Source: Bacteroidetes bacterium GWF2_40_14 (GTDB lineage Bacteria; Bacteroidota; Bacteroidia; Bacteroidales; UBA932). From it: DNA of 46,602 nucleotides. The translations under genes were made by a program, and so were the position numbers. The notes under the pieces are model-generated. The model made no database searches and was not told the DNA's origin. It worked only from the letters and a program-made list of their open reading frames with translations. The stretch spans positions 16,647 through 63,248 of the forward strand of contig MEOK01000041.1 of assembly GCA_001769195.1 (NCBI GenBank), in the 5' to 3' direction. Positions 4,749 to 36,778 of the stretch are shown piece after piece (the stretch's first letter is position 1; each line of letters begins with the position of its first letter).

Positions 4749-4777
4749 GGGTACACTTGCCACGTCCCCATGTACCC
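4749..4777 (+). repeat. 29-bp palindromic element (P1), intergenic copy
   Basis: Arms GGGTACA and TGTACCC enclose a core containing CGTCCCC; the whole is 29 bp. It is the only one of six copies in this window that lies outside a gene. It is followed by further ATGTACCC/TATACCC half-repeats up to about 4801. Confidence 0.8.
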
Positions 4778-4846
4778 ACCCATGTACCCACATATATACC
4801 CACAAATACTCACCCCTCGTACATAAAATATATTTTCCATTGGAAA

Positions 4847-4877
4847 TTTGTTTTTATGGAAAATGTATTTATCTTTG
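4847..4877 (+). promoter_or_regulatory. Bacteroidota-type promoter for the DUF6132-methyltransferase genes
   Basis: TTTG at 4847-4850 and TATCTTTG at 4870-4877 are 19 bases apart, matching the TTTG-N19-TAnnTTTG consensus of the Bacteroidota housekeeping sigma factor. The start codon at 4904 is 26 bases downstream. Confidence 0.75.
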
Positions 4878-4903
4878 CACTGTATTTCTTAAAGAAAAAA
4901 CTG

Positions 4904-5116
4904 ATGGAAAGATTACTTAATTATATAAAGATTAACTGGCTCATTTTTGCGGGATTAGGAACAGGTGCCATTGCAGGCTACCTCTACTGGTACTTTATCG
5001 GCTGTCAAAGCGGTACTTGCCCCATAACCTCATCACCTCTCAACAGTACAATCTATGGTACAATTATGGGAGGACTATTTTTCAGTATGTTTAAAAAAGA
5101 GAAAAAGAAAAATTAG
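4904..5116 (+). CDS. DUF6132-type small membrane protein
   Basis: This 70-residue protein has two hydrophobic segments (about residues 11-27 and 46-62) separated by a short loop with Cys residues and the stretch CQSGTCPITSSP, followed by a Lys-rich tail. This matches the DUF6132 family of tiny Bacteroidota inner-membrane proteins, often found beside thioredoxin- or rhodanese-like genes. The start at 4904 was chosen because the reading frame upstream runs through repeat sequence and because the promoter at 4847-4877 lies between. The methyltransferase gene starts 2 bases after its stop. The molecular role is unknown; the two Cys and the neighbouring thioredoxin hint at thiol chemistry, which is inference. 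Confidence 0.8.
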   Translation: MERLLNYIKINWLIFAGLGTGAIAGYLYWYFIGCQSGTCPITSSPLNSTIYGTIMGGLFFSMFKKEKKKN

Positions 5117-5118
5117 TT

Positions 5119-5736
5119 ATGACTGATTATTTTAAGAATAAAGCATCAGATTGGGACTCTCCTATGAAGGTTGATATGTCCGGACGATTTGTAGAAGAGA
5201 TGGTCAGTAACGTAAAATTCAACAAATCTGTAAAGGCAATGGATTTGGGCTGTGGAACAGGTCTTGTGGGATTGAGCATAGTCAATGAGATAAAGTCACT
5301 CATCATGGTAGATAACTCTAAGGCAATGATTGACAAGTTAAAAGAGAAACTTGAAGAAATTGAGCAAAACAGCAAAACCGCTCTTAAAGAAAAAGTAAAA
5401 ATCATAAATGGATCTGTAGACAAATATACAACTAAGGACCTGGATGTAGTTTTTTCTCTTATGGCAATTCACCATATAGATAATATTGATGCTCTTTTAG
5501 AACATATTTCAAAAATTCTCAAACCTGGAGGAGTTCTGATAATAGGTGATTTGTGCGAAGAAGACGGATCATTTCATGGTGAAGAGAGTGTCCCACATAA
5601 CGGATTTAATATCGAATCCCTCTCCAAACAAATGGAAGAGTGCGATTTAGACATTGTTACCACATATACATACAATACAATTAAAAAGAATAACCGTGAC
5701 TATGACCAATTTATCATAATCGCAAAAAAAATATAA
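5119..5736 (+). CDS. Class I SAM-dependent methyltransferase
   Basis: This 205-residue cytoplasmic enzyme has the SAM-binding motif I MDLGCGTGLVGLSI at residues 41-54, an acidic motif II (MVDNSKAMID), and the motif IV/post-motif region VFSLMAIHHIDNID followed by LKPGGVLIIGDL. The fold is a compact methyltransferase of the Methyltransf_11/12 type; it has no accessory domain that would name the substrate. It begins 2 bases after the DUF6132 gene and is 22 bases before thioredoxin, so the three are likely co-transcribed. Substrate unknown; a small-molecule or metalloid/thiol substrate is only a possibility suggested by the neighbours. Confidence 0.88.
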   Translation: MTDYFKNKASDWDSPMKVDMSGRFVEEMVSNVKFNKSVKAMDLGCGTGLVGLSIVNEIKSLIMVDNSKAMIDKLKEKLEEIEQNSKTALKEKVKIINGSVDKYTTKDLDVVFSLMAIHHIDNIDALLEHISKILKPGGVLIIGDLCEEDGSFHGEESVPHNGFNIESLSKQMEECDLDIVTTYTYNTIKKNNRDYDQFIIIAKKI

Positions 5737-5758
5737 AAACAGAAAAAATATTTTAATC

Positions 5759-6118
5759 ATGAAAACAATACACTTAACAAAAAATGAGTTTTTAGCAAAA
5801 GTTGCTAATTATGAAACCGATCCCACAGAATGGAAATATCTTGGTGACAAGCCAGCAATTATTGACTTCTATGCAGACTGGTGCGGCCCGTGCAAGACTA
5901 TCGCCCCCGTATTGGAGGAACTTGCTGCTGAGTACGAAGGCAAAATATATGTTTATAAGGTTAATACAGAACAAGAACAAGAACTTGCCGGAACATTTGG
6001 TATCCGCAGTATCCCATCACTATTGTTTGTACCTATGTCCGGCCCGCCACAAATGGCCCAGGGAGCACTGCCTAAGGCTTCTTTCAAAGAGGCCATAGAA
6101 AACGTTCTGTTGAAATAA
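5759..6118 (+). CDS. trxA: Thioredoxin
   Basis: This 119-residue protein has the active site WCGPC with cysteines at residues 42 and 45, the preceding IIDFYADWCGPC strand-helix junction, and the cis-proline loop IRSIPSLLFV. Length and motif are those of a classical cytoplasmic thioredoxin, with an N-terminal extension of about ten residues and no signal peptide. It reduces protein disulfides using electrons from thioredoxin reductase, which is not in this window. It follows the methyltransferase by 22 bases and precedes the Cys-rich exported protein gene by about 70. Bacteroidota often carry several thioredoxins, so the symbol denotes the family, not proven orthology. Confidence 0.9.
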   Translation: MKTIHLTKNEFLAKVANYETDPTEWKYLGDKPAIIDFYADWCGPCKTIAPVLEELAAEYEGKIYVYKVNTEQEQELAGTFGIRSIPSLLFVPMSGPPQMAQGALPKASFKEAIENVLLK

Positions 6119-6189
6119 TTATTAAAGTTGGCTCGAAAATTGCGGCGATCATTTCCGACAATTTGAGTAAATACTTTAATAATAAAAAA

Positions 6190-6672
6190 ATGAAATCTAA
6201 ACTAACACTAATTGCACTGGCACTTATTGCCACTGTAAGCATTGCATCTGCACAGAACACACAAACAAAAGAGGTTAAATCAACTAAAGAAAAAGCATGT
6301 TGCCCACAAACTGAACAAAAGGCATGCTGCCCACAAACAGAACAAAAGGCAACTGCAGATAAAAAGGATGGCAAAACCGTTGCATGCCCATGCTCTGCTA
6401 AAACTACTGAAAAAGTAGCTGAAAAGAAGCAAGAATGCACAGGTAATTGCACAGGCAATTGCGAGAAAAAAGAGGTGAAAGCTGTAAAGAAAGATGAGTG
6501 CTCAGGTAATTGCTCAGACTGTGATAAGGATAAGAAGGAAGTAAAAAAATCTGCTTGTTGTGAGGAGCAAAAGGCAGCACCAAAAAGCTGTTGTGAAGGA
6601 GCTGACAAGAGTGTTAAACCAGCTAAACCGGCAGAACCAGCAAAAGCAGTGAAAGCTGCAAAAGTAAAATAG
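6190..6672 (+). CDS. Exported Cys/Lys-rich repeat protein, possible metal binder
   Basis: The 160-residue product starts at 6190 with a signal peptide ending in a SIASAQ-type cleavage site (about residue 21). The mature part is built from short Cys motifs separated by Lys/Glu-rich linkers: KACCPQTEQ twice, ACPCS, ECTGNCTGNC, ECSGNCSDC, SACCEE and SCCEG, about sixteen cysteines in all. Its tail is an Ala/Pro/Lys repeat. CC and CxxC pairs of this kind bind soft metals in metallothionein-like proteins, but no named family was recognised. The signal peptide closely resembles that of the EF-hand protein at 8300-8677, suggesting shared ancestry of the two leaders. A strong terminator follows at 6713. 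Metal sequestration in the envelope is an inference from composition and neighbours. Confidence 0.75.
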   Translation: MKSKLTLIALALIATVSIASAQNTQTKEVKSTKEKACCPQTEQKACCPQTEQKATADKKDGKTVACPCSAKTTEKVAEKKQECTGNCTGNCEKKEVKAVKKDECSGNCSDCDKDKKEVKKSACCEEQKAAPKSCCEGADKSVKPAKPAEPAKAVKAAKVK

Positions 6673-6712
6673 TTAAGTAGTTACTTCTATTTGGGTCTCA
6701 TTTACTCCATTT

Positions 6713-6745
6713 AATCTCACAGATTCTTCTGTGAGATTTTTTTTT
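6713..6745 (+). terminator. Rho-independent terminator after the Cys-rich protein gene
   Basis: A perfect 11-bp stem (AATCTCACAGA / TCTGTGAGATT) with a 4-base loop is followed by an uninterrupted T tract to 6745. It separates the thioredoxin/Cys-rich unit from the ECF sigma unit. Confidence 0.93.
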
Positions 6746-6749
6746 ACCG

Positions 6750-6779
6750 TAGGTTTTTGAACATATTGGTGTCTAAATA
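6750..6779 (+). promoter_or_regulatory. Candidate ECF-sigma promoter upstream of the sigma gene
   Basis: TAGG at 6750-6753 and TGTCTAAATA at 6770-6779 occur with exactly the same spacing at 7365-7394, just before the next gene. A two-box element repeated at one spacing before both genes suggests autoregulation by the encoded sigma factor. No known consensus was matched. Confidence 0.45.
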
Positions 6780-6796
6780 CTATCAAAAGAGAATTA

Positions 6797-8695: not shown

Positions 8696-11650
8696 TTAGG
8701 CACTCGATTTAGCTTCAGCTGTTTCGGGTGCTTTTTTTAATGCCTCATAAAGAAGTTCCACAGGATGCTTTGCAACTCTTCCTGTGCCGTCCTTGATCTG
8801 CTGACGGCAGGATGTTCCGGGAGCTGAGATTGCAACATCGGCAGGTGCCGACCTTACTATCGGGAACAGAGTTTGCTCACCAATACTCATGGAAATATCG
8901 AAGTGCTCCTTTTCATAGCCAAACGAACCTGCCATTCCACAGCAACCTGTTGGCATAACCTCTACACTGTAGTTAACCGGCAAAGAGAGCATATCCTTAG
9001 ATAAAGCAACTGATGCAAGGGATTTTTGATGACAGTGTCCGTGAAGCTTTATATTCAGATACTTATCAGTAAATAATTCTGACCTTATCCTTCCGGCAGC
9101 CACTTCTTTCATAATGAATTCGTCATACAACAGACAATTTTTTGCCAGCTTCAATGCTTCATCCTTTAACTCTTTGCCCACCAGATCCGGATACTCGTCC
9201 CTGAACGATAGTATGCAGGATGGCTCGATTCCCACCAAAGGGGACTCTTCAGATATGATATCTTTTAATGCATGCACATTCTTTATAGCAAGCCTCCGTG
9301 CCCTCTTTAGCATACCTTTGGAAAATGCTGCCCTCCCACTCTCAGAATGAGCAGGGACAATAACCCGGTAACCTAAATTTTCAAGAAGTTTGACAAACTT
9401 CATTCCAACTTCGGCATCGTTGTAATTTGTAAACTCGTCAGCAAATACATACACCGGGCGGGTATATGGGGACGCACATTGTGTACCCACAGAGTTGCTA
9501 GTATTTGGATTTGTACCGGGTACACAATGTGCGTCCCCATATACCCATTTACGGAAAGTGACGCGGGAGATTGATGGTATCTCTCTATTAGAGGAAAACT
9601 TAAGTATGCCTTTTATTACCTTAGAAGTAAGCCTATTGGCCGCGAAAAAATTGTATATCGGTGTAAACCAAGAGCCTATTTGCTGTATATCGGCCATTCT
9701 TGAGACCATAAACGCCCTGAATGTCGGTGAGGTCAAGTCATAATGGTGTTGAAGGAATTCTGCCTTGTACCTTGCCATGTCTACATTCGAAGGACATTCG
9801 CTTTTACAAGCCTTGCAAGATATGCAAAGTTCAAGAGCATCCATTATCTCCTTCTGGTCAAATACTTTTGCAGTGGACGGTCTGGTCAGTAACTCTCTCA
9901 GAATATTTGCACGTCCTCGTGTAACATCTTTTTCATCTCCCGTAGCCCTGAAACTCGGACACATGGTGTCTCCGAACTGGCTGGCTTTACGGCAATCTCC
10001 CGAACCATTACACTGCTCAATGGCCCTTATCCATCCACCTTGAGCAGAAAAATCAAAGTAGGTATTGAATTCCGGAACAACTGCACCTGGCTGATACCTC
10101 AACGAGGAGTTCATTGGAGGAGTGTCTACGATTTTATTGTTATTGAACAGGTTGAACGGATCAAAAACCTCCTTTACCCTCTTCATAATTCCGTAAATGT
10201 AATCTCCAAACATCAATGGTATGAATTCTCCTCTCAACCTTCCGTCCCCATGTTCACCGGAAAGAGAGCCACGATACTTCTTTACAAGTAAAGCAGTCTC
10301 TCTTGCAACGGTCCTGAAAAGTTCCACGTCTCCTGAATCCTTAAGGTTGAGTATTGGTCTGAGGTGTAGCTCACCGGTTCCAATGTGGGCATGATAGACA
10401 CACGAAAGATCATATTTGCTGAGCATCGCTGCAAATTCTTTCATATATTCGGGGAGTCTTGCCGGGGCAACAGCTGTATCTTCTGTAACCGATACCGGCT
10501 TTGCATCACCCTTCATTAATGTGAGAAGTCCCAACCCCGATTTTCTAAGTTCCCAGACTCTGGAAATATCGGCACCGTAAACCCTTGAACAATAATATAT
10601 CAACCCGGAGGAGATAAGATCCGACTCAATTGCCGAAACTACATTATCTAGCTCCTCCTTGCTCTCATTTGCTATCTCAATAATTAGAATCGCAGCAGGA
10701 TCGCCCTTAATGAAAAATCTGTTTTTATTTTGTGATATGTTGCTTTTACTAAGTTCCAGAATTGTGGAGTCCATCATTTCCACTGCTACAGGAGAGTGTC
10801 TAAGGGCAATAAGGTTTGCCTTGAAAATATCTTCAAATGATGCTGAATGCGCACAAACAACTGCTCTCTCCTTAGGCGGGATTGGTACAAGATTCAGTTT
10901 GATTTCCGAAATAAATGCCAGAGTACCTTCCGACCCGGCCAGCAACGGGCAAAGATTAATATAGTGTTCATCCGATCTGCAAGAGTGAACAAGCTCATCC
11001 AAGGCATATCCTGTGTTTCTCCTGCGGATTACAGGGTCCGGGAAGTTCTCCTCTATCTCAGAAAGTGCCCTTTTATTCTCTAGAAGGTCGGCAACAAAAC
11101 CATATATCTTTGCTTCAAGAGTGTCACCTAAAAGTTTTTCTTCAAACTCTTTCTTGGTAAGATCTTTGCAAACTATAATCGAACCATCCGACAATATTAC
11201 TTCTGCCTCCGGAAGATGATCACGAGTACTGCCATAAACCAATGAATGTGAACCACATGAATTATTGCCAACCATACCGGCCATGCAACATCTGTTTGAG
11301 GTAGATGTCTCCGGACCAAAGAAGAGTCCATGAACTCCGGCAGCAATATTAAGATCGTCAAGCACAACCCCGGGCTCAACCCGTGCCCATCTCTCCTCAG
11401 GATTTATTTCCAGTATTTTATTAAGGTATTTAGACACATCTACAACCAAACCGCTGCCCACCACCTGACCGGCAAGGGAAGTTCCTGCTCCTCTTGGAAT
11501 AATTGAGATTCCCTTCTCTCTTGCAAACATTACAATATCGGAGAGATCTTTCTTACTCTCGGGAAAGAAAACTCCCGATGGCATTTCCCTATATGCAGAG
11601 GCATCTGTAGAATAGATTATTCTGTGCAGAAGATCTCTTTTTATATCCAT
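8696..11650 (-). CDS. ydiJ: YdiJ-type FAD-linked oxidoreductase with Fe-S and CCG domains
   Basis: This ~984-residue protein begins with a FAD-binding PCMH-type domain (IPRGAGTSLAGQ early, GNNSCGSHSL, then GSEGTLAFISEI), followed by the FAD-oxidase C domain (HIGTGELHLRP, SGEHGDGRLRGEF). A ferredoxin-like region comes next with CISCKACKSECPSNVDMARYK, and the C-terminal part is a heterodisulfide-reductase/GlpC-like half ending GCCGMAGSFGYEKEHF. This is the architecture and length of YdiJ, which oxidises D-2-hydroxyglutarate-like 2-hydroxyacids and passes electrons onward. Start 11650 (MDIKRDLL) was chosen because upstream sequence belongs to the neighbouring gene. An 87-bp palindromic insertion at 9460-9546 adds 29 in-frame residues in the linker before the C-terminal domain. 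Confidence 0.88.
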   Translation of the reverse strand: MDIKRDLLHRIIYSTDASAYREMPSGVFFPESKKDLSDIVMFAREKGISIIPRGAGTSLAGQVVGSGLVVDVSKYLNKILEINPEERWARVEPGVVLDDLNIAAGVHGLFFGPETSTSNRCCMAGMVGNNSCGSHSLVYGSTRDHLPEAEVILSDGSIIVCKDLTKKEFEEKLLGDTLEAKIYGFVADLLENKRALSEIEENFPDPVIRRRNTGYALDELVHSCRSDEHYINLCPLLAGSEGTLAFISEIKLNLVPIPPKERAVVCAHSASFEDIFKANLIALRHSPVAVEMMDSTILELSKSNISQNKNRFFIKGDPAAILIIEIANESKEELDNVVSAIESDLISSGLIYYCSRVYGADISRVWELRKSGLGLLTLMKGDAKPVSVTEDTAVAPARLPEYMKEFAAMLSKYDLSCVYHAHIGTGELHLRPILNLKDSGDVELFRTVARETALLVKKYRGSLSGEHGDGRLRGEFIPLMFGDYIYGIMKRVKEVFDPFNLFNNNKIVDTPPMNSSLRYQPGAVVPEFNTYFDFSAQGGWIRAIEQCNGSGDCRKASQFGDTMCPSFRATGDEKDVTRGRANILRELLTRPSTAKVFDQKEIMDALELCISCKACKSECPSNVDMARYKAEFLQHHYDLTSPTFRAFMVSRMADIQQIGSWFTPIYNFFAANRLTSKVIKGILKFSSNREIPSISRVTFRKWVYGDAHCVPGTNPNTSNSVGTQCASPYTRPVYVFADEFTNYNDAEVGMKFVKLLENLGYRVIVPAHSESGRAAFSKGMLKRARRLAIKNVHALKDIISEESPLVGIEPSCILSFRDEYPDLVGKELKDEALKLAKNCLLYDEFIMKEVAAGRIRSELFTDKYLNIKLHGHCHQKSLASVALSKDMLSLPVNYSVEVMPTGCCGMAGSFGYEKEHFDISMSIGEQTLFPIVRSAPADVAISAPGTSCRQQIKDGTGRVAKHPVELLYEALKKAPETAEAKSSA
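8700..8738 (+). terminator. Rho-independent terminator lying inside the convergent gene's 3' end
   Basis: An 8-bp stem (GCACTCGA / TCGGGTGC, one G-U) is followed by seven T on the plus strand. It closes the EF-hand gene and lies wholly within the last codons of the minus-strand dehydrogenase gene that ends at 8696. Confidence 0.75.
9460..9546. repeat. Two inverted copies of the 29-bp palindromic element (P2a/P2b) inside the ydiJ-like gene
   Basis: Positions 9460-9488 and 9518-9546 are perfect reverse complements of each other over all 29 bases (arms GGGTATA or ATATACCC, core GCGTCCCC), with a 29-base spacer. The total of 87 bp is exactly 29 codons, so the frame of the host gene is kept. The inserted residues include YGDAHCVPG and its near mirror VGTQCASPYT. 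Confidence 0.9.
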
Positions 11651-11669
11651 CAATTTTGAAATTAGCAGA

Positions 11670-12254
11670 TTATCCCTTTGTAACCTTTCCTTCTTGCAGA
11701 AAATAATTCTGTTTGCTTTCCGGACAGGTTGCCCTCCCATTGGAATCAAACACCAGTTTGTGGCCATATTCGCTCATCCAACCAACCTGACGGGCAGGGT
11801 TTCCTACAACCAGGGCATATGGAAGAACACCTTTTGTGACAACAGCTCCTGCACCGATAAATGCAAACTCACCAATATCGTGTCCGCATACAATTGTAGA
11901 ATTGGCGCCAATAGTGGCCCCTTTACCAACATGGGTCCTTTCATAAAGACTTTTCCTGTTCACGGCACTACGCGGATTGGTTATGTTTGTGAAGACACAG
12001 GAAGGTCCAAGAAAGACATCATCGTCACAAATAACACCGGTATAAATGGAGACATTGTTCTGAACTTTCACATTACGCCCCAGAACAACACCCGGAGAGA
12101 TTACAACATTCTGCCCTATATTGCACTCCTCGCCAATGACAGAGTCGCTCATAACATGGGAGAAGTGCCATATCTTAGTACCTTTCCCTATTGCACAACC
12201 TTGGTCTATTATAGCCGTTTCATGTGCATAAAAGTCTTTTTCTGAATTTTCCAT
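11670..12254 (-). CDS. wbpD: WbpD/WlbB-type sugar N-acetyltransferase (left-handed beta helix)
   Basis: This 194-residue enzyme is built of hexapeptide repeats (isoleucine-rich patterns such as AIIDQGCAIGKGTKIWHF, VVISPGVVLGRNVKVQNN) that fold into a left-handed beta helix and trimerise. The stretches VFTNITNPRSAVNRK, GANSTIVCGHDIGEFAFIGAGAVVTK and GNPARQVGWMSEYG are characteristic of the acetyltransferase making UDP-2,3-diacetamido-2,3-dideoxy-glucuronate from its 3-amino precursor for O-antigen or capsule. Start 12254 was chosen as the ATG matching the family N terminus. It stands alone here, 19 bases upstream of the ydiJ-like gene; a WbpI-like epimerase of the same pathway lies at 39314-40507. 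Confidence 0.82.
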   Translation of the reverse strand: MENSEKDFYAHETAIIDQGCAIGKGTKIWHFSHVMSDSVIGEECNIGQNVVISPGVVLGRNVKVQNNVSIYTGVICDDDVFLGPSCVFTNITNPRSAVNRKSLYERTHVGKGATIGANSTIVCGHDIGEFAFIGAGAVVTKGVLPYALVVGNPARQVGWMSEYGHKLVFDSNGRATCPESKQNYFLQEGKVTKG

Positions 12255-16964: not shown

Positions 16965-17460
16965 AGTCAGCTCTGCCAAAGGGGTTAGCAGTTCTTTGGA
17001 AATGAGAGGTATACATATTCGTCTGCTAATCTATTATTTGCTAACTGCTTTGGCAAAGCGGTTAGTAGTTATCAGATAATCAATTAACTACGTATTTGCT
17101 TGATTCTCAGACCATTTTGCAAGTATTTGTAAATCACACATGTGCTAATCACTCTGCCAGAGTCTTTGCCAGAGAGGTTAGCACTTCGCTGGGAATGAGA
17201 GGTATACGTATTCGTCTGCTAATCTATTATTTGCTAACTGCTTTGGCAAAGCGGTTAGTAAATACCTAATTTGCAGCTAAATATATAACCATGTGGAGGC
17301 AAATCTTGCCGACACATACCTTCTTGAGCTCTTTGAATCCTAATCAAAGCCAAATTTCAACACTGTTTTAGTAAATTTCTCATTACTCAGTAGCTGTTAC
17401 TCAGTGTCCTTTGCAGTTTTCACATGATTTTGCCGGACATGTGGGAAACTTCAAAAAACT
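16965..17460 (+). repeat. Large dispersed multi-hairpin repeat, copy B
   Basis: This begins about 55 bases after the dehydrogenase stop codon, in the same orientation, and parallels copy A over most of its length. The GTTAG-C-TTC, AATGAGAGGTATAC and TTCGTCTGCTAATC module is present twice (about 16975-17070 and 17180-17265). The stem TTTGCTAACTGCTTTG / CAAAGCGGTTAGTAAA differs from copy A at paired positions (CTTTG/CAAAG here, CTCTG/CAGAG there), so pairing is preserved. The terminal GGCAAATCTTGCCGACACATACC and the CATTACTCAGT...CATGATTTTGCCGGACATG tail are also shared. No gene was found in this stretch. Confidence 0.82.
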
Positions 17461-17681: not shown

Positions 17682-20237
17682 TTAATCTTCAACTACCCTC
17701 AGTTTTGCAAATTTTAATAGCAATGTCTTCTTTCCACTCCCCTCAAAATCTACAATTGCCTTTGCGTTCAGCTGGTCACCATCCAGATTTAACAATAATC
17801 CAAAACCGAATCTGTCATGCTCTACCCTCTGACCTGCCTTAAGCTTCGATACCGGATCTGCACAAAAATTGGGATCGGGAGCCTTATGAGGAAAAGAAGG
17901 CAGAGGTCTGGGTGAGGATGAGGACGACGAAGAGGACGATGAAGAGGACGACGATAACGATGAGTTTGCTGATCTCTGAGGCACCTCCGTAGATTGCCGC
18001 CTTTCCTGTGAGTGTCTTTCTTGTCCGGCAATTCTCGTGCCATCATTTCTGTAATTTCCCGATTGCCAGGCAGGCCTCGAAGGCTTCGACTCCGAAATTC
18101 TCTCCCAACTACCCGTCTGTTGCATACTATCGCTCTCAAGATCTGGCCAGTCCAGAAACTTGCGGTCAATCTCTTTAAGAAAACGACTTGGCGGATAATT
18201 CACATGTGAGCCCCACCTGAAGCGGGACTGTGCATAGGATAATGTAACAGTTAACTTTGCCCTCGTGATTGCTACATAAAAAAGGCGCCGTTCCTCCTCA
18301 AGTTCACTTTCGCTGCTGGAGCTATTCATAGAAGGGAAAAGGTTCTCTTCCATCCCAATTATATAGATATATGGAAACTCGAGACCTTTTGCAGAATGAG
18401 CCGTCATCAGACTTATCTTGTTTGAGTCCTCTTCGCCATTATTCTCATCTACCGCACTCATCAATGTTATGTTCTCCAGATAATTGGGCAACAAAATTAG
18501 GGGATTTCCGATGATTATCGGCAGAGCGGTTTCTTCTGTTTGTTCATCCGGTTCTAACCCGACAGTGTCAGGGTTATTCCCCGGGTACACATGGTGCGTC
18601 CCCATGTCCCCCCCCATGTCTCCCGTTTCCTCTTCACCCTCTTCTACAAATGCTTTTATGCTGTTCATAAGCTCTTCGGCATTGTCTACCCGTGCCTGCC
18701 CCTCTACTGAGGTGTCAATGCGCAGAAACTCCATATAGCCCGATTTTATGAACACCTCCATTGCCAGATCATACGCATTTGCACTCTCCACTTTCTGACT
18801 CATATCTGTAATAAGTGAGGTGAATTCGAATAGACGGGCGGCGGTGGCTGGTTTGATACCCATTACTGCCAGATCCCCGCTATGAAGAGCCTCCCATATA
18901 GAAAGACCAGCAGAGTTAGCCCCCGCCGCCAGACGCCCGATTGTGGTCTCACCAATACCGCGCGGAGGAACATTTACAACTCTTTTGAATGCTTCGTCAT
19001 CTTTTTTATTGGTAAGCAACCTCAGGTAAGACATTATATCCTTAACCTCCGCCCTCTCATAAAAAGAGTGGCCACCATAGATTTTGTATGGCAATGATCT
19101 CTTTCTGAGCGCCTCCTCAACAGCACGAGACTGAGCATTAGTCCTGTACAAAACAGCAAAATCACTATACGGAGCTTTGGTGGAATATATTTTAGACAAT
19201 ACCGACGAAGCCAAAAGGAAAGCCTCCTCCTGATCTGTATATGCTTTTACAACTTCGATCTTCTCCCCTACGGAAGCAGCTGAGAAGCACTCCTTCTTAA
19301 GCTGCATGGAATTCCTGGCAATAAGACTGTTGGCCGCATTGACAATAGTTTGTGTGGAACGATAATTTTGCTCCAGTTTGAACTCTTTTGCCTCGGGATA
19401 GTCCTTTTTGAAATTCAGAATGTTCTCAATGCGTGCCCCGCGAAAAGAGTATATACTCTGGGCATCGTCACCCACAACACATATATTTTTGTGAACTGCA
19501 GACAATTTCTTGACAATAAGGTATTGCGAAAAGTTTGTATCCTGATACTCATCCACTAGTATATATGAGAATCTTGCACGTAGTTTATCCAAAACCTGAG
19601 GAAAATCTCGCAGAAGAATATTTGTATAAACCAGAATATCGTCAAAATCCATGGCCCCTGCCTGTTTGCATTTCTTTTCATAAAGTGCATAAATATCACA
19701 GATTCTGGGTTTGCGCGAAGCAACATCGTTCTGGATAAGGTTTACATTTGAAAAATAGGCCGCCGAAGTAACCAGATTATTCTTTGCCATTGAGATTCTG
19801 GAGAGTACCTCATTTGTTTTGTATAGCTTTTCATCCAGACACAACTCCTTTATGCAACTTCGTATGGCGCTTTTTGAATCAGATGTGTCATATATTGTAA
19901 AACTCTTTGGAAAGCCCAGTAATTCAGCATCTTCCCTAAGAAACCTGACAAAAACAGAGTGAAAGGTTCCCATCCAGAGATACCTCGACCTCTCAAGACC
20001 AACCAAAGCTGATATCCTGTCTTTCATTTCCTTAGAAGCTTTGTTAGTAAATGTCAGAGCCAGAATTGAGCCTGCTTTGTTGCCATTGCTCAGTATATTG
20101 GCTATTCTGCAAGTAAGTACCTTTGTTTTTCCCGACCCTGCTCCCGCAACAATCAAAGATGGGCCCTCAAATTGTTCAACTGCTTGCTTTTGAACAGGAT
20201 TTAGGCCTTCAAATATCGACGAAATTTGTGTGTTCAT
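17682..20237 (-). CDS. uvrD: UvrD/PcrA-family DNA helicase (superfamily 1A)
   Basis: This ~851-residue ATP-dependent 3'-5' DNA helicase starts at MNTQISSIFEGLNPVQKQAV (Q motif), with Walker A GAGSGKTKVLTCRIA at about residue 37, motif II VDEYQDTN, motif III GDDAQSIYSFRGA, motif IV EQNYRST, and motifs V/VI MTAHSAKGLEF and RRLFYVAITRAK. It serves nucleotide-excision and mismatch repair and clears proteins from DNA. Two oddities lie in linkers: a palindromic-element insertion (18583-18611) adds residues around GTHHVYPGNNP in domain 2B, and the C-terminal tail has a run of about fourteen Ser before the terminal PcrA-type Tudor-like region (VEHDRFGFG). It is divergent from nqrA with overlapping promoters. 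Confidence 0.92.
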   Translation of the reverse strand: MNTQISSIFEGLNPVQKQAVEQFEGPSLIVAGAGSGKTKVLTCRIANILSNGNKAGSILALTFTNKASKEMKDRISALVGLERSRYLWMGTFHSVFVRFLREDAELLGFPKSFTIYDTSDSKSAIRSCIKELCLDEKLYKTNEVLSRISMAKNNLVTSAAYFSNVNLIQNDVASRKPRICDIYALYEKKCKQAGAMDFDDILVYTNILLRDFPQVLDKLRARFSYILVDEYQDTNFSQYLIVKKLSAVHKNICVVGDDAQSIYSFRGARIENILNFKKDYPEAKEFKLEQNYRSTQTIVNAANSLIARNSMQLKKECFSAASVGEKIEVVKAYTDQEEAFLLASSVLSKIYSTKAPYSDFAVLYRTNAQSRAVEEALRKRSLPYKIYGGHSFYERAEVKDIMSYLRLLTNKKDDEAFKRVVNVPPRGIGETTIGRLAAGANSAGLSIWEALHSGDLAVMGIKPATAARLFEFTSLITDMSQKVESANAYDLAMEVFIKSGYMEFLRIDTSVEGQARVDNAEELMNSIKAFVEEGEEETGDMGGDMGTHHVYPGNNPDTVGLEPDEQTEETALPIIIGNPLILLPNYLENITLMSAVDENNGEEDSNKISLMTAHSAKGLEFPYIYIIGMEENLFPSMNSSSSESELEEERRLFYVAITRAKLTVTLSYAQSRFRWGSHVNYPPSRFLKEIDRKFLDWPDLESDSMQQTGSWERISESKPSRPAWQSGNYRNDGTRIAGQERHSQERRQSTEVPQRSANSSLSSSSSSSSSSSSSSPRPLPSFPHKAPDPNFCADPVSKLKAGQRVEHDRFGFGLLLNLDGDQLNAKAIVDFEGSGKKTLLLKFAKLRVVED
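18583..18611 (-). repeat. 29-bp palindromic element (P3) inside uvrD
   Basis: GGGTACA arm, GCGTCCCC core and a decayed right arm (TGTCCC instead of TGTACCC). It is translated as part of an acidic, low-conservation loop of the helicase. Confidence 0.82.
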
Positions 20238-20271
20238 TGGCGACAAAAATAACAAATAATGTGTATCTTTG
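20236..20271. promoter_or_regulatory. Overlapping divergent promoters of nqrA and uvrD
   Basis: Plus strand: TATCTTTG at 20264-20271, 20 bases before the nqrA ATG at 20292, with a TTG at 20237-20239 as a loosely spaced -33. Minus strand: TATTTTTG read from 20251 to 20244, only a few bases before the uvrD ATG at 20237, implying a very short leader. The two units share about 35 bp of control DNA. Confidence 0.6.
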
Positions 20272-27045: not shown

Positions 27046-28392
27046 CTACACATCCATACGGATACGCCAGTTCATTGGCAAAAGATTGTTTGCACGACTC
27101 CCCACGTTTTTTACAAAACCAAGGCCAAGACCATTATAAGTAACCCGCAAATAGCCCATAGGGGCACCCTCTAATCGTAAGGCGTTACGCGAAAGATACT
27201 TTAAAGCATCCTCCTTGCTCAACTCAACAGAAGGCCACTCCCCCTTATAATTTATTGAAAGCGCGTACTCATGATCCGGCTGCCCATTGCCCATTGCCAA
27301 TTGCCTATTGCCCACTGCCTGTTGCCCATTGCCTATTGCCCATTGCCTATTGCCCGGTTTCTTCAACAGTGCAAAGAAAAACCCCTCCCCCTCAGCCAAC
27401 CCGGGAAAAAACTGGAAACCACCCTCTTTCGTTGGTCTTATTCCCCATTCATTTACCAATTTCCTATTGAATTTATCCTCTATCGAGTTTGATCGGTAGA
27501 ATTCATACAAGTCAAAGATTTCTGCACCAAATTCTGCCTTGAGCCAAGAAATGTTTCTGTCGTTTTCATATAAATTGAATGTACAAGTAGAGTAAGCCAG
27601 AAGTCCACCTGGTTTTAACGAGGTCCATATATCGGCAAGAATTCTTTTCTGACGCGCAGCGCACATTTTCACACTCTCTTCTGACCATTCGACAATTGCA
27701 GATGGGTCCTTGCGAAACATACCTTCACCCGAACACGGAGCATCAACCAAAATGAAATCAAAAGGACTTATATGGCAGCCAGCCGATTTATCAACAGAAA
27801 AAAAGGCAACCTCAGATGAGTCTTGTCTTTTTGAACCACTCTTTTTTGCATGCGTGCCCTGCTCACCTTTATTAATTTGTTTGGAAAAACCATCCGGATC
27901 CATATTTGTGACCACAACTGTATGGTCACCCCATTTAATGACATTCTCTTTAAGAGTAGCAACTCTCGTTCTTATCACCTCATTTGCAATTAGTTGTGCC
28001 CCACGAGGCATCATAGAGATCAGATGAGTTGTTTTTCCTCCGGGTGAAGCACAGAGATCCAGCAAGTTCCTACAGTTTAAAATATTCAGCACCGGTTCCA
28101 GTACCGCCAGAAACATAGACGATGGCTCCTGAACATAATACCCACCAGCATGCAGAGCAGGATCGAGCGTAAACACCGGCCTTACTGAGAGATATAGACC
28201 ATCTTTGCACCAGGGGATTGGTGTTGTGGGTACACCTGATGCGTCCCCATGTACCCCCATAGACATAACCTTAAGAGGATTAATTCTCACAGACACCTTT
28301 GGCTTTGTGTTTTGGATTGCGTCCAGAATCACCGGTGTATCTGAAACACCTGCCGCCTCTGTAAGATACTCAATAAATTTCTCTGGTAACAT
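27046..28392 (-). CDS. rsmF: RsmF/NOL1-NOP2-Sun type rRNA (cytosine-C5) methyltransferase
   Basis: This 448-residue enzyme methylates cytosine in rRNA. It shows the RINPLK N-terminal stretch, [14 protein letters not shown], motif [14 protein letters not shown], motif [15 protein letters not shown] with a catalytic Cys, and motif VI YSTCTFN with the second Cys. The C-terminal ~100 residues form a PUA-like RNA-binding part ([10 protein letters not shown]...PMGYLRV). Two repeat insertions sit in linkers: the palindromic element at 28228-28256 (residues around [10 protein letters not shown] between INPLK and IPWC) and a heptamer array at 27284-27353, translated as three near-copies of a 7-residue repeat ([21 protein letters not shown]). 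Whether the product is active is not known, but all motifs are intact. Confidence 0.9.
27284..27353 (-). repeat. Heptamer tandem array inside rsmF (10 units)
   Basis: Ten 7-bp units of CCATTGC, CTATTGC and close variants. Because 21 bp is seven codons, the array encodes a 7-residue repeat in any frame and leaves long open frames on the other strand. On the minus strand the unit reads GCAATGG/GCAATAG, the same family as 43404-43445. Confidence 0.93.
28228..28256 (-). repeat. 29-bp palindromic element (P4) inside rsmF
   Basis: Perfect GGGTACA and TGTACCC arms with a GCGTCCCC core. Located between two conserved stretches of the N-terminal domain. Confidence 0.88.
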
Positions 28393-30124: not shown

Positions 30125-30553
30125 CTAATATTTTATTACACCGTTGAACCCTTTCTCAAGTTCGTCAGTAACTTTATCAATGGCTCCCTGGAGTTTCGAC
30201 CCAAGCATCATCTTAAAAAAGCCGGACAACGCTGCATCAAGTTCCAGATGAAATTCAGTTTCAGCTTCATTAATCGGATTTAACAATACCTTAAAGACAA
30301 ATGCTATAGGACTCTTTCCGTACTGGACATATTTAATTGAACTGTATGGCGTTCTCTCATCTACCTTCAATCCCATCTCAAAACCCTGAACTTTTGCCAA
30401 AAGAGTATCTGCTGTCGATTTAATTTCCGATTTTTCCTGAATACCATCAGGCAAGTTCCGCGTGAAATTGTTCAAATCTAAAAAAAGTTCAAACAACACA
30501 TTTAACGGTTGCCGAACAACTACCTTCCTTCCCTTTACCTGAGTCACACCCAT
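30125..30553 (-). CDS. SRPBCC/polyketide-cyclase-like small protein
   Basis: This 142-residue protein shows the START-like pattern of an initial beta strand, a helix pair (PLNVLFELFLDLNNFTRNLPD), a long antiparallel sheet, and a C-terminal helix (FFKMMLGSKLQGAIDKVTDELEKGF). No catalytic residues can be named, and it has no signal peptide. Such folds bind hydrophobic ligands. Its start codon lies immediately beside the octamer array at 30557-30668 that separates it from pyrE, and its stop is 2 bases before the hexosaminidase start, so translation of the two may be linked. Confidence 0.7.
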   Translation of the reverse strand: MGVTQVKGRKVVVRQPLNVLFELFLDLNNFTRNLPDGIQEKSEIKSTADTLLAKVQGFEMGLKVDERTPYSSIKYVQYGKSPIAFVFKVLLNPINEAETEFHLELDAALSGFFKMMLGSKLQGAIDKVTDELEKGFNGVIKY

Positions 30554-30556
30554 ATA

Positions 30557-30668
30557 ATTAGCATATTAGCACATTAACCCATTAGCACATTAACCCATTA
30601 GCACATTAACCCATTAGCACATTAACCCATTAGCACATTAGCACATTAACCCATTAGCACATTAACCC
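30557..30668. repeat. Octamer tandem array (ATTAGCAC/ATTAACCC), copy 2
   Basis: Fourteen consecutive 8-bp units, mostly alternating ATTAGCAC and ATTAACCC, fill the gap between pyrE and the SRPBCC gene. The final unit overlaps the pyrE 3' end and contributes its stop codon (30662-30664). Confidence 0.95.
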
Positions 30669-31300
30669 TCCCGGCCCCATACTTCCGGACGATACCTCCA
30701 CTCGCGCAATGTATCAACTTCGTTTTGTGCAATATATTCACAAGCAAGCGCCTGATCTATAAGTGCATCGTAATTAGTCAAAGTTCTCAATTCGCAATTT
30801 GCATATTCAAATGCCCTGCGCGATTTATCAAAGTTATAAGAGAAGATTGCTACCATTCCCAATACATTTGCTCCTGCTTTAGAGAGACAATCCACTGCAG
30901 ATAGCGAACTGCCACCGGTAGATATAAGGTCCTCTACAACAACTACATTTGCTCCAATCGGTAACTCACCTTCTATCTGAGCACCAGTACCATGATCTTT
31001 TGGTTGAGGGCGAACATATATAAATGGTTTGTTAAGTTCTTCTGCTACCAGAACGCCCCATGCTATAGCTCCGGTTGCAACTCCTGCTATAACCTCCACT
31101 TTCTCATAATTCTGCTCAATGATACGTGCTAAATTTTTGCTAACAATAGCCCTGGACCTCGGATATGACAAAATCTTGCGATTGTCGCAATATATAGGTG
31201 ATTTCCAGCCCGATGCCCACGTAAATGGCTTGTCGACACTCAATCTTACAGCCTTTAAATCCAAAAGTTGTTTTGCAATTATTTTTTCTATAGATTCCAT
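30662..31300 (-). CDS. pyrE: Orotate phosphoribosyltransferase
   Basis: This 212-residue cytoplasmic enzyme converts orotate and PRPP to OMP in pyrimidine synthesis. The PRPP-binding loop is VVVVEDLISTGGSS, and FTWASGWKSPIYCDNRKILS at the N terminus, GVATGAIAWG and the flexible-loop region RPQPKDHGTGAQIEG are all present. Start 31300 (MESIEKII) was chosen because it fits the family N terminus and the palindromic promoter at 31308-31325 lies just upstream. The last codons and stop fall in or at the edge of the octamer array. It is divergent from the Nudix gene. Confidence 0.95.
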   Translation of the reverse strand: MESIEKIIAKQLLDLKAVRLSVDKPFTWASGWKSPIYCDNRKILSYPRSRAIVSKNLARIIEQNYEKVEVIAGVATGAIAWGVLVAEELNKPFIYVRPQPKDHGTGAQIEGELPIGANVVVVEDLISTGGSSLSAVDCLSKAGANVLGMVAIFSYNFDKSRRAFEYANCELRTLTNYDALIDQALACEYIAQNEVDTLREWRYRPEVWGREG

Positions 31301-32072: not shown

Positions 32073-32801
32073 CTACCGGAGGTCGGTAACAGACAAACCG
32101 TTCATCCGTGATTCCGGAAAGGAGAAGTAGCTTAGCGGCCAAGGCCTTTTTCCCAGGAAGTAGGAAATCCTGGCGACATGTTTTGTGCCATTTTTAGCAA
32201 GGTATTCCACAGCGAGAGGTTTCAGGGAACTCTTCTCGACAAGCAGAGTTATAGAAGTATAAGCCAGCTTTTTGTTGACAGTTTTCAGTTCAATTTTCCA
32301 TGCAGCTTTACCAGATTCAGTTGTCGAAACAGGCTTTTCGTTGTATGAGTAACCCTTTTCCAGAGAGGTTAGGAAAGCCATCGGATTCTCCGTAAGGTCA
32401 GTCTGAGAAGGATCATTTCCTGTTATCGTAATTTCTTTGTTATCAATATTATATATCCACTTTGTGGTACCGTTGCAGTAAAGTTCCAGCTGGGAGTTTG
32501 TCAGCCTGAAAGATTCGCCCTGTGATTGTACAACACCCTCAAATTCAGAGCCATCAACAACCATAGAAAACTTCATCTCAAAAGCCGGATAGGATTTTAG
32601 CTTAGCGGTAAACTGACCTAGAATCTCCGAATTAGTAGACAGATTATTTAATGTTTGCAACTGCTTGTTTGAAGTTTGTTGCTGCTGATTAGGAAAAAGA
32701 GGAGAAGAAGAGACCAAAAGGAAGAAGAGCAAGAATGACCTTGCCACAGTTTTTGGCAACTTATTGAAAGACTGAGATATACGAAATGCATTTCTAGGCA
32801 T
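32073..32801 (-). CDS. LolA-like outer-membrane lipoprotein carrier
   Basis: This 242-residue protein has a basic N terminus and hydrophobic segment (about 18-33) acting as signal peptide, then a beta-rich domain with FTAKLKSYPAFEMKFSMVV, LYCNGTTKWIYN and AWKIELKTVN that fits the LolA/DUF4292 fold, which shuttles lipoproteins across the periplasm. It lies downstream of ftsK, with 82 bases between. The start codon lies in a set of three 10-bp repeats that also creates two ATG-codon-stop mini-frames just upstream, and codons 14-20 (around KLPKTVAR) are one arm of a perfect 23-bp inverted repeat with the ftsK stop region. Confidence 0.75.
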   Translation of the reverse strand: MPRNAFRISQSFNKLPKTVARSFLLFFLLVSSSPLFPNQQQQTSNKQLQTLNNLSTNSEILGQFTAKLKSYPAFEMKFSMVVDGSEFEGVVQSQGESFRLTNSQLELYCNGTTKWIYNIDNKEITITGNDPSQTDLTENPMAFLTSLEKGYSYNEKPVSTTESGKAAWKIELKTVNKKLAYTSITLLVEKSSLKPLAVEYLAKNGTKHVARISYFLGKRPWPLSYFSFPESRMNGLSVTDLR

Positions 32802-32884
32802 TTTAAGGCATTTTAAGACATTTGAAAATATTCAACTTATAACAAGCTATCTAAGAGCTCTTTGCCAAAAACTGTGGCAAGGTC
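32737..32884. repeat. 23-bp perfect inverted repeat bracketing the lolA-like start
   Basis: The segment 32737-32759 (GACCTTGCCACAG...GGCAA) is the exact reverse complement of 32862-32884, over all 23 bases, with 102 bases between. One arm is coding sequence of the LolA-like gene, the other reaches the ftsK stop codon. In the minus-strand transcript the loop would contain the lolA ribosome-binding region and start. Confidence 0.9.
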
Positions 32885-35403
32885 TACTCCAGCGACGCCA
32901 GTATGCGGTCCAACGAGTTGAAGTCTGTAATCAGAACCTGACGCGCCTTGCTCCCTTCGAAAGGGCCCACAATACCGGCAGCTTCAAGCTGGTCCATTAT
33001 ACGTCCGGCACGGTTATAACCAAGATTCATCCTGCGTTGAATGAGCGAAGTGGAACCCTGCTGGAACTGAACCACCAACTTAGCAGCCTCATCAAAAAGC
33101 TTGTCCCTCTTACCAAGATCAATTTCACCAGCTCCCGACATTTCACCCTCCTCGCCAACATATTCAGGCAAGAAATGTGCCGTAGAATAACCACGCTGAG
33201 AACCAATAAACTCACAAATCCTCTCAACTTCCGGAGTATCAATGAATGCACATTGAACACGAGTAAGCTCACCACTATTAGAGAAGAGCATATCCCCACG
33301 ACCGATAAGCTGATTGGCGCCCGTAGTATCAAGAATTGTACGAGAATCAATATTTGAAATTACCCGGAAAGCAATACGAGCAGGGAAATTGGCCTTAATC
33401 AAACCCGTAATGATATTTGTTGTAGGTCTTTGAGTAGCAATAACAAGGTGAATTCCAATTGCACGAGCCAACTGAGCAAGACGCGCGATAGGCTCCTCAA
33501 CTTCACGGCCGGCAGTCATCAGAAGATCTGCAAACTCATCAATGATAACAACAATAAAAGGCATGTACCGGTGTCCCTTGTTGGGGTTAAGCCGGCGCGA
33601 CAAGAATTTCTCGTTGTACTCCTTAATATTACGGACATGGGCAATCTTGAGAAGATCATAACGAGAGTCCATCTCAATGGTAAGCGACTTTAAGGTATAT
33701 ACAACCTTTTGAGTATCAGTAATTATAGCATCATCAGAATCAGGCAGTTTTGCCAGAAAATGCCGCTCAAGTTTAGAGTATAGAGAAAGTTCAACCTTTT
33801 TAGGGTCAACCAGAACAAACTTAAGCTCAGAAGGATGTTTAGTATATAGTAACGATGTAATCACAGCATTCAGACCCACAGACTTACCCTGACCGGTCGC
33901 CCCTGCAACAAGAAGATGGGGCATCTTAGCAAGGTCAAATGTAAGGGCTTCATTGGAAATTGTCCTTCCCAATACCACAGGCAAATCATAATTGGAATTC
34001 TTGAACTTAGGATCCTCAAGCACAGAACGCATAGGCACAATGCTCGGCTTGTCGTTAGCCACCTCAATACCAACAGCATTAGTCCCGGGAATAGGAGCAA
34101 TAATCCTGACACCACGGGCTGCCAGAGAAAGAGCAATATCATCTTCAAGCCTCTTAATCTGAGAAATCCTCACACCGGCAGCCGGAACAATCTCATAAAG
34201 AGTGACTGTAGGACCTGTTCGTGCAAAAATCCTTTCAATAGCTATTTTATAATCCCCCAAAGTCTTTACAATCTTACGATTGTTTTTTTCAAGCTCATCA
34301 TGAGGAACCTTGTAAATCTTATCCTTATAATCGTCCAGAAGGTTCAGCGGAGGAATCTGGTAATCCGATAAATCCAGACGAGGATCAAAAAGCGTGTCTA
34401 AGGACCCTTTAGGAAAATCCTTAAGAAAGTCCTCATCATCATTTTCAACCTCAGCAACATCATCATCTTCATCCAGCTCAATCTCACCCATTTCAAAACC
34501 TTCCGGTTGTGTATTTCTGTTTGCACCAGCAGCGGATACACCTTTGGCAGCTATCCCTGAAGCTGCGGCAACATCATTAACAGACAAGTAATCTGCCCCC
34601 TCTACTTCAAAAACTACATCCCTGTTTATGGAATTTGAACCGGATATTACGAAAGAACCCGGAACATCAGGAGAAGCAGAAATATTAGGAGAACCAGATT
34701 CAGCAGAAGCCGATTCCGACGCAAGAGCAGCAGCTGCAGCAAGAGCGGCTGCTTTCTCAGACTTACTCTCTTTTGGTTCCTTCAGCTCTCTCGGTTTTCT
34801 ATGGAAAATACCGGCAATAAGAGCATTGAACCAAACAACAATCTTGTAGTTCAGCAGCACGAGCCAAAGCATAAGCAGGACAGCAACCACAGCACCAGCA
34901 CCCATTGGCCCCAGCATGGATATAAGCCACTCATTTACATAGTAGCCGTAAGACCCACCAACCCCGTTTCCGAACCAAGTGTCAAACTTTGTAAATCCAA
35001 AAACATATGAGAAAAATACCGACAAAATAATTGCCCCGAAAGCCGACAGGAAGAAAACCCGCAATAACCTGACTTTTCTAATTTTAAGCGAATAAATAGA
35101 TATGCCCAAAAAGAAAAAAGGAATAATGAACGCTCCCAGACCAAACAATTGTGAAAGTAGAAGGTTAGCCCAAAAGAAACCAACCTTGCCACCACCATTC
35201 TCAACCGGAACCATATTGCTCCACACGTCTGTCCGCGATAGCAGTGACTGATCCTCGGCCCATGTAAAAAGGTAAGAAGCAAGCGCAACAAAAGTGTAAA
35301 TAGCTAAAGCGGCAAAAAACAAGCCGTTAATAAGACGAAACGCCTCTTTCCCCTGAGGAGGAGGAGCAATTTCGCCATTTGTAGAACTTTTCTTCTTAGC
35401 CAT
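32884..35403 (-). CDS. ftsK: FtsK/SpoIIIE-family DNA translocase
   Basis: This 839-residue protein has four membrane segments in the first ~200 residues, an Ala/Ser/Glu/Asp-rich linker (about 205-330), and a motor. The alpha-beta motor has Walker A GATGQGKS at residues 501-508 and Walker B VVIIDEFADLL. The C-terminal gamma winged-helix domain (about 770-839, LIQRRMNLGYNRAGRIMDQLE) recognises polar DNA sequences. The protein couples chromosome segregation to division. It is followed on the minus strand by the LolA-like gene and preceded by murA, 52 bases away. Confidence 0.95.
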   Translation of the reverse strand: MAKKKSSTNGEIAPPPQGKEAFRLINGLFFAALAIYTFVALASYLFTWAEDQSLLSRTDVWSNMVPVENGGGKVGFFWANLLLSQLFGLGAFIIPFFFLGISIYSLKIRKVRLLRVFFLSAFGAIILSVFFSYVFGFTKFDTWFGNGVGGSYGYYVNEWLISMLGPMGAGAVVAVLLMLWLVLLNYKIVVWFNALIAGIFHRKPRELKEPKESKSEKAAALAAAAALASESASAESGSPNISASPDVPGSFVISGSNSINRDVVFEVEGADYLSVNDVAAASGIAAKGVSAAGANRNTQPEGFEMGEIELDEDDDVAEVENDDEDFLKDFPKGSLDTLFDPRLDLSDYQIPPLNLLDDYKDKIYKVPHDELEKNNRKIVKTLGDYKIAIERIFARTGPTVTLYEIVPAAGVRISQIKRLEDDIALSLAARGVRIIAPIPGTNAVGIEVANDKPSIVPMRSVLEDPKFKNSNYDLPVVLGRTISNEALTFDLAKMPHLLVAGATGQGKSVGLNAVITSLLYTKHPSELKFVLVDPKKVELSLYSKLERHFLAKLPDSDDAIITDTQKVVYTLKSLTIEMDSRYDLLKIAHVRNIKEYNEKFLSRRLNPNKGHRYMPFIVVIIDEFADLLMTAGREVEEPIARLAQLARAIGIHLVIATQRPTTNIITGLIKANFPARIAFRVISNIDSRTILDTTGANQLIGRGDMLFSNSGELTRVQCAFIDTPEVERICEFIGSQRGYSTAHFLPEYVGEEGEMSGAGEIDLGKRDKLFDEAAKLVVQFQQGSTSLIQRRMNLGYNRAGRIMDQLEAAGIVGPFEGSKARQVLITDFNSLDRILASLE

Positions 35404-35455
35404 ATATAAAACCTATTATACTCTAAATAAATTATACTCTTAATATCAAAATACC

Positions 35456-36778
35456 TTACACCCTTTCAATTCTGGCACCAATAGCATTGAGACGACCATC
35501 GATGTTCTGATAACCCCTGTCAATCTGCTCAATATTTTCTATTATGCTGGTACCCTTTGCACTCATAGCCGCAATCAGCAATGCTATTCCAGCCCTAATA
35601 TCCGGCGAAGCCATGCGGGTACCCTTAAGGCAAAACGCACGGTCGTGTCCAATAATAGTAGCCCTGTGAGGGTCACATAAAATAATCTGGGCACCCATGT
35701 CAATAAGCTTGTCCACAAAGAAAAGCCTGCTTTCGAACATCTTCTGATGAATAAGCACAGAACCCTTTGCCTGAACAGCAGTAACAAGAAAAACGCTCAA
35801 CAGGTCAGGTGTAAGACCCGGCCACGGAGCATCTGCAATAGTCATAATTGATCCATCCAGGAAACTCTCAATCTCGTAGTGATCATGCACAGGAATAAAA
35901 ATATCATCACCTCTGCGGTCAACGGTAATGCCCAGTCTTCTGAACTGAGCCGGAATAATTCCCAACTCATCATAAGCCACATCCTTAATGGTAATTTCGC
36001 TGGCTGTCATGGCGGCAAGGCCAATAAAACTACCAACCTCAATCATATCCGGCAGAATAGTGTGCACACAGCCTCCGAGAGATGAAACTCCTTCAATGGT
36101 AAGCAGATTGGAACCAATACCGGAGATTTTTGCCCCCATTCGGTTGAGCATCTTACATAACTGCTGCAAGTAAGGTTCGCACGCAGCATTGTAGATAGTG
36201 GTAACCCCTTGGGCCAGGACCGCTGCCATTACAATATTTGCAGTACCAGTTACAGAGGCCTCATCAAGAAGCATATAGCAACCCTTAAGACCTTTGGTAC
36301 GCAACTCAAAAAAAGAACCGCTGCTTTCAAAATTAAGCTCCGCTCCAAGCTTTTCAAATCCAATAAGGTGAGTATCAAGGCGCCTTCTGCCAATCTTGTC
36401 TCCACCGGGTTTAGGCATATATGCAAATCCAAAACGAGCCAGGAGCGGACCAACCAGCATGACAGAACCCCTCAGTGCGGCTGATTTCCTGCAGAACTCA
36501 GCAGACCGCACAAAATCAAGGTTAATGTTTTTTGCGCAGAATGTGAATGCCGGGGGTACATGGGGACGCACATTGTGTACCCGTTCCACCTCAACCCCCA
36601 GATCAACCAGAAGCTCTATTAGCTTGTTTACATCAAGAATATCTGGAAGATTATGAATTGTCACCTTTCCATCTGTAAGCAAAACAGCAGAAAGAATTTG
36701 GAGGGCCTCATTTTTAGCCCCTTGCGGAATAAGCTCGCCTTTAAGACGGTGCCCACCCTCAACCTTAAAAACAGCCAT
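35456..36778 (-). CDS. murA: UDP-N-acetylglucosamine 1-carboxyvinyltransferase
   Basis: This 440-residue enzyme makes the first committed step of peptidoglycan synthesis, transferring enolpyruvate to UDP-GlcNAc. It shows [13 protein letters not shown] at the N terminus, [16 protein letters not shown], and [14 protein letters not shown], in which Asp127 occupies the place of the usual active-site Cys. Asp variants, known for example in mycobacteria, are active and insensitive to fosfomycin. A palindromic-element insertion (36554-36582) replaces a short linker at residues ~66-76 with [12 protein letters not shown]. Upstream on the same strand lie DUF4290 and the UpxY-like gene; downstream is ftsK. 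Confidence 0.95.
36554..36582 (-). repeat. 29-bp palindromic element (P5) inside murA
   Basis: Full-length copy with GGGTACA and TGTACCC arms, plus-strand core GGGGACGC. It is translated in a variable loop ahead of the conserved active-site region. Confidence 0.88.

Follow-up and report, generated by a model that had tools for sequence, protein, structure and literature searches.

A palindromic repeat of 29 bp in the genome of Bacteroidetes bacterium GWF2_40_14 (GenBank assembly GCA_001769195.1, 3.36 Mb in 42 contigs) probably represents a species-specific and moderately abundant family (about 41 core sites) of the type known as repetitive extragenic palindromes (REPs) or bacterial interspersed mosaic elements (BIMEs). 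Its members occur as single units, as inverted doublets or as tips of a larger composite element, and their spread was probably mediated by hairpins. The window analyzed here is a stretch of 46,602 nucleotides and corresponds to bases 16647-63248 (up to the contig end) of the 63,248-base contig MEOK01000041.1, here called C41. It contains six copies of the 29-mer, five of them within protein genes. The copies and their host genes, the latter three of which were assigned from the open reading frame (ORF), Pfam and alignment with solved structures, are as follows.

4749..4777, minus strand (the strand reading GGGTACATGGGGACG): 29-mer copy with 6 mismatches to the consensus
8696..11767, minus strand: gene of a FAD-linked oxidase / 4Fe-4S protein (PF02913, PF01565, PF13534), termed ydiJ-like in an earlier sequence-only reading
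9460..9546, no strand assigned: inverted doublet, two identical 29-mers separated by 29 nt (87 nt together), inside the oxidoreductase gene and in its translated frame
17682..20255, minus strand: uvrD/pcrA helicase gene
18583..18611, minus strand: 29-mer in uvrD, sense to the gene, in a variable linker within the UvrD_C match, 3 mismatches
27046..28392, minus strand: rsmF rRNA methyltransferase gene
28228..28256, minus strand: 29-mer in rsmF, sense to the gene, in a loop of the N-terminal domain, 4 mismatches
35456..36778, minus strand: murA
36554..36582, plus strand: 29-mer in murA, antisense to the gene, exact consensus

A chance origin of the repeat is ruled out by shuffles of the window and by genome-wide counts against controls. 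The six copies, which the sequence-only reading had located correctly, compare with 0.83 expected in a two-arm search allowing up to three mismatches, and none of 100 shuffles reached six. The arms are exact in three copies and carry one mismatch in the other three. To call the copies near-identical was nevertheless generous, since they show 0, 1, 1, 3, 4 and 6 mismatches to the 29-nt consensus. The diverged copy at 4749 has ACGTCCCC in place of GCGTCCCC, is followed on the plus strand by partial tandem units CATGTACCCAC and lies in the N-terminal part of a mechanically called ORF with a GTG start, upstream of a DUF6132 match. Over-representation also holds for the whole genome: the 29-mer has 19 sites at up to three mismatches (control 0), and its best-conserved part, the 16-nt core GGGGACGCAYAWTGTG, has 41 sites at up to two mismatches (control 1), including 18 exact ones.

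A 24-nt pattern of the repeat finds 29 matches in the host, none in 24 congeners (genomes 73-99% complete, some of them only 73-90%) and a single match with two mismatches in five of 173 other relatives. These five matches are attributed to chance because the reversed control of the pattern matches in 9 genomes. Thus, among the genomes searched the 29-mer family is private to the host species. The window and five loci showed no Rfam match at the gathering threshold. Searches of viral contigs for an exact 25-mer and of genome contigs for an exact gapped form of the 29-mer gave no match, in sets from which the host genome itself or records very close to it may have been excluded. No title among the literature matches listed deals with the present family.

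The five intragenic copies of the window lie in frame inside four long ORFs that stay open and retain the Pfam domains of their hosts, which agrees with the sequence-only reading. GGGGACG is read in sense in the first oxidoreductase copy and in the uvrD and rsmF copies, and in antisense in the second oxidoreductase copy and in the murA copy. Some other copies are located in mechanically called ORFs that are shorter, about 80-220 amino acids long. All four gene sites are variable loops according to relatives and alignments with solved structures (the loops were located by comparison with 3v4t_A, PcrA and 3m6u_A). That the repeat represents ordinary conserved codons is ruled out, since other residues stand at these sites in the relatives (18 murA, 9 rsmF, 4 uvrD and 17 oxidoreductase sequences).

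Between its conserved flanks the murA loop comprises 12 residues in the host and 13 to 60 in 18 congeners. It has exactly 6 residues in 76 of 80 distant genomes and 7 or 9 in the other four; these are the best 80 of 590 matches among named public genomes (near records possibly excluded), with MurA sequences at most 74% identical to that of the host, and they belong to Bacteroidota of several orders besides a few odd labels, the top six being Alistipes or other Rikenellaceae. The best solved MurA structure, 3v4t_A, is 8 residues shorter than the host enzyme exactly at the repeat site. Judged from these lengths the murA loop did grow relative to distant genomes. Six congener loci (L037, L038, L039, L040, L041 and L042) have murA loops of 35-60 residues, in most cases with simple or GC-rich repeats, so the loop is a general expansion site in the genus. 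In genomes G003 and G016 this loop contains a GC-rich hairpin; a REP of another species was considered for it and rejected, as it occurs at one place per genome.

The rsmF loop has 18 residues in the host, 15 to 31 in nine congeners and 17 in the solved Thermus rRNA methylase 3m6u_A; without the 29-mer about 8 residues would be left. For the oxidoreductase the corresponding loop comprises 30 residues in the host and 11 to 27 in 17 congeners, and one more locus lacks the region. The uvrD linker (about 50 residues, whereas PcrA has about 7) is variable in four congeners and hence uninformative on replacement. No clean empty site was found at the four gene loci, where the congener loops differ in length and sequence; the comparison covered congeners, the closest of which are 83-87% identical in MurA. 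Native loop codons are missing at murA, rsmF and the oxidoreductase, three of the four sites. The earlier view that the repeat had been inserted is therefore doubtful: with native codons lost from the loops, a non-conservative process is favoured over a clean insertion, and both an insertion followed by deletion and the copying of a patch fit the gene sites. The in-frame copies in the hypervariable loops are probably translated and near-neutral.

The single unit of the family is an imperfect hairpin of about 29 nt with the core GGGGACGCAYAWTGTG. In the list of core sites of the whole host genome there are eight pairs in plus-then-minus order, 55 to 431 bp apart, none in minus-then-plus order within 500 bp and one pair of the same orientation (contig C34, 132 bp apart). 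In the oxidoreductase doublet (9460/9518) the arms are 100% complementary and fold as a 29-bp hairpin (z -11.55). Several doublets flank a palindromic element and form with it a composite of about 270 nt, whose core of about 130 nt shows a layout of A-tract, stem and T-tract. The consensus hairpin of ten aligned cores, which were chosen by a regular expression on both ends and thus with a bias to complete copies, has 30 pairs, 11 of them with two-sided compensatory changes, and 95.7% of the cells are paired. Its covariation score was reached by none of 500 shuffles, the structure having been derived from the same alignment as was used for the test. With a covariance model built from these ten cores and run under stricter filters, 30 matches were found in the host, five in G017, four in G014, one in G013 and none in the remaining 56 of 60 genomes. 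The outer tips of the four readable congener composites (L205, L208 and L211 of G017 and L206 of G013) differ by eye from the 29-mer. Because the composites of these nearest congeners carry other tip sequences, the core of the hairpin seems to be the older part and the 29-mer a younger tip. One composite reaches into the window.

1..40, no strand assigned: right-hand end of a palindromic composite, whose left end lies just upstream of the window (C41:16473) and is a degenerate 29-mer with 5 mismatches

Several copies of the composite stand at contig ends. Several copies are bordered by tandem units of the GTACATGG type at one end and by CTAATGTG octamers at the opposite end. Octamer arrays (ATTAGCAC/ATTAACCC) also occur at 38-101 and 30553-30672 of the window, and elsewhere in the genome a 29-mer (L133, L139) or the composite hairpin marks the immediate start of such arrays.

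Outside genes the repeat has a preferred position. Among 39 sites at up to eight mismatches, 27 lie outside called ORFs and 12 inside (mechanical ORFs included). Thirteen of the 27 intergenic copies start -3 to +12 nt from a stop codon on the same strand and none beside a stop codon on the opposite strand, while random intergenic placement on C41 is stop-proximal in 3.4% (355/10400); the genes in this test are simple longest-ORF calls and the baseline comes from C41 only. A copy at L002:658, found by hand 9 nt past the stop codon of an aminotransferase-like gene, was counted as lying in an ORF and is outside the 13. Four further copies (two in L004, one each in L136 and L137; two of the four with 7-8 mismatches) overlap the 3'-terminal codons of a gene that runs in their own orientation. 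In the stop-proximal orientation the RNA hairpin is stronger than that of the other strand (-11.4 vs -7.8 kcal/mol).

The closest known systems are treated by Di Nocera et al. (2013; PMC3733652). REPs are described there as palindromes of 20-40 bp that form head-to-head dimers, some families being species-specific. They are often located less than 20 bp from the 3' ends of ORFs with stop codons touching the repeat, and some units are translated inside genes, for example that of the UvrD/Rep helicase. Similarly to REPs and to their doublets (REPINs), the host family is a palindrome in this size range with many copies per genome, has inverted doublets (eight) and prefers the immediate 3' side of coding regions (13 of the 27 copies between genes against 3.4% expected). 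It differs in its longer loop, in the absence of the 29-mer from all three host loci of putative REP-associated tyrosine transposases (RAYTs, Y1 genes) and in having its long-gene copies on one contig. CGTC-tagged REPs are defined by a terminal unpaired CGTC, a stem of 8-9 bp, a loop of 4-5 nt and a CCA tail (PMC3733652). The host repeat shares with them the CGTC, the intragenic copies and the lack of a detected dedicated transposase, but it does not show this combination of stem, loop and tail. For the TIR families of TIRYT genes, with single and dimeric repeats, the motif GGGGWSAS is given (PMC3733652); the host core GGGGACGC agrees with it at 7 of 8 positions, but no Y1 gene of the host is bounded by the 29-mer. 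In-frame REPs are also reported (PMC6006769) within tnpA-REP genes of subclass 2.4, which is frequent in Cyanobacteria and Bacteroidetes. There, as here, a REP-type sequence lies within a gene and the frame is kept, but the host there is the transposase itself and here they are housekeeping genes.

The sequence-only reading had pointed to Rickettsia palindromic elements (RPEs), which are likewise palindromic and in frame in open genes. RPE-1 is longer, R. conorii CGTC-1 and CGTC-4 correspond to RPE-6 and RPE-4, and expression of RPE-decorated proteins is reported for R. conorii (all PMC3733652). As to copy sites, the two systems also differ. Rickettsia palindromic elements have clean empty sites in relatives, and for the host copies none was found. 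We file the host repeat as a new family of REP-like palindromes that matches no single family definition tested, because it has no GTAG tag, has its CGTC in the loop and has no Y1 gene found beside it. It is not a new kind of element, since REP-like palindromes are already described. The former designation as an unnamed family thus holds for the sequence family, while translated REPs inside genes, UvrD/Rep included, had been published in 2013 already (PMC3733652).

At E <= 0.001 the host genome has three Y1_Tnp matches, one of them in the window together with a REPIN-like doublet of another family.

44672-45445, minus strand: Y1/RAYT-like gene (Y1_Tnp match), the closest 29-mer being 8.1 kb off
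32738..32883, no strand assigned: inverted doublet (REPIN-like) of a different family with CCTTGCCACAGTTTTTGGCAA arms, the same palindromes as around the Y1 gene C17:1504

The Y1 gene of contig C25 is flanked on either side by a CAGCCCTATGCTTTCATGGCCA doublet, that of contig C17 (C17:1504) by CCTTGCCACAGTTTTTGGCAA palindromes. Among the three, the window gene alone lacks a recognised cognate palindrome. Several congeners possess Y1 genes that stand between repeated palindromes specific to the species (L149, L150, L151, L156, L165, L168, L171), and therefore the absence of the 29-mer at the host Y1 genes is meaningful. The Y1 tree around the window gene is poorly resolved (usable protein from 23 of 32 loci).

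Several points weigh against a REP/BIME-type family spread by hairpins. No 29-mer was found at up to 11 mismatches in the loci of about 3 kb around any of the three host Y1 genes. There is no GTAG or GTGG (GT[AG]G) at the hairpin foot, since by eye the consensus starts with GGGTACATGGGG and the flanks are variable. In the folds the CGTC stands in the hairpin loop and not at the foot, and this loop comprises 15 nt (fewer if G-U pairs form) against 4-5 nt in the published CGTC families (PMC3733652). Neither the short target duplications considered by the sequence-only reading nor a conserved target were seen by eye in the flanks. Almost half of the intergenic copies (14 of 27) lie away from stop codons. 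Finally, all four long-gene loci are on the 63 kb of C41 (P about 4e-4), a contig that makes up 1.9% of the genome yet holds 8 of 41 core sites (0.77 expected), or, when sites no more than 500 bp apart are counted as one, 6 of 32 loci (P about 3e-5); these P values are flattering because the window had been picked for these very copies. Such confinement of in-gene copies weighs against mobilisation in trans, which predicts otherwise if it acts genome-wide.

We nevertheless regard a REP/BIME-type family as the probable explanation and infer its movement as follows. Spread would most likely proceed by hairpin-mediated copying through single-stranded DNA, with either a Y1/HUH enzyme acting in trans (that of the window gene or one absent from the assembly) or template switching at replication forks as the copying agent. 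Action of a Y1 enzyme in trans is compatible with the lack of flanking 29-mers, and an unseen cognate gene is conceivable because the assembly is 97.5% complete. That the repeat is moved specifically by the RAYT encoded at 44672-45445, as had been proposed, appears doubtful. Its product is a Y1_Tnp protein, congener genes of this kind do have repeated palindromes on both sides, and it is the host gene left without a partner. But its own locus is devoid of the 29-mer, and of 20 congeners having a murA match 11 possess a Y1 match within about 12 kb of murA, all without the 29-mer. A spread without any enzyme, by hairpin or microhomology template switching at forks or during repair that patches short host stretches, deserves somewhat more credit and can be held tentatively. 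The missing native codons at murA, rsmF and the oxidoreductase, the identical doublet arms, the co-varying composite arms, the clustering on C41 and the tandem GTACATGG units and octamer arrays beside the repeat would all agree with it. However, an insertion combined with a deletion, or an insertion into an already short murA loop, looks identical, and 18 exact cores among 41 are many for undirected copying. A bolder version, rather unlikely at present, is that the repeat spreads locally as a hairpin-derived patch that overwrites short coding stretches and does not insert, which would be an enzyme-light route from palindrome to protein; it is suggested by the native loop codons missing at three of four sites and by the concentration of the four long-gene loci and of 8 of 41 core sites on the 63 kb of C41.

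Placement and orientation relative to stop codons, the better folding of the mRNA strand and the A-tract, stem and T-tract of the composite core could also be explained by a functional 3'-UTR hairpin or terminator under selection at gene ends, with accidental copies in genes. We consider this improbable, as the repeat was not found in the 24 congeners, two of the copies in genes (that of murA and one of the oxidoreductase) are antisense and no more than 13 of the 27 intergenic copies lie close to a stop codon. It is hardly credible that the repeat is a protein-binding chromosomal site of the parS, matS or operator type and not a mobile repeat, although it is a palindrome and its copies cluster on one contig. 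Sites of this type should be common to a genus, and none was found in the 24 congeners; moreover, the loop is conserved and non-palindromic, and doublets and composites exist.

A further repeat family with CTCTGCCAGAG and TGTCGGCAAGATTTGCCGACA palindromes is present at 4264-4622, 16971-17362 and 46355-46525 of the window. It is also found in locus L016 near a transposase-like ORF, presumably of the IS66 type, and is possibly a miniature inverted-repeat transposable element (MITE).

With the 29-mer family a Bacteroidota-type genus joins the cases in which REP-like palindromes are apparently read as protein in housekeeping genes. Having several species with differently flanked Y1 genes, this genus is a good setting for following the turnover of REP families, and it is equally suited to asking whether palindromes that lack a dedicated transposase owe their spread to an enzyme or to errors in copying.

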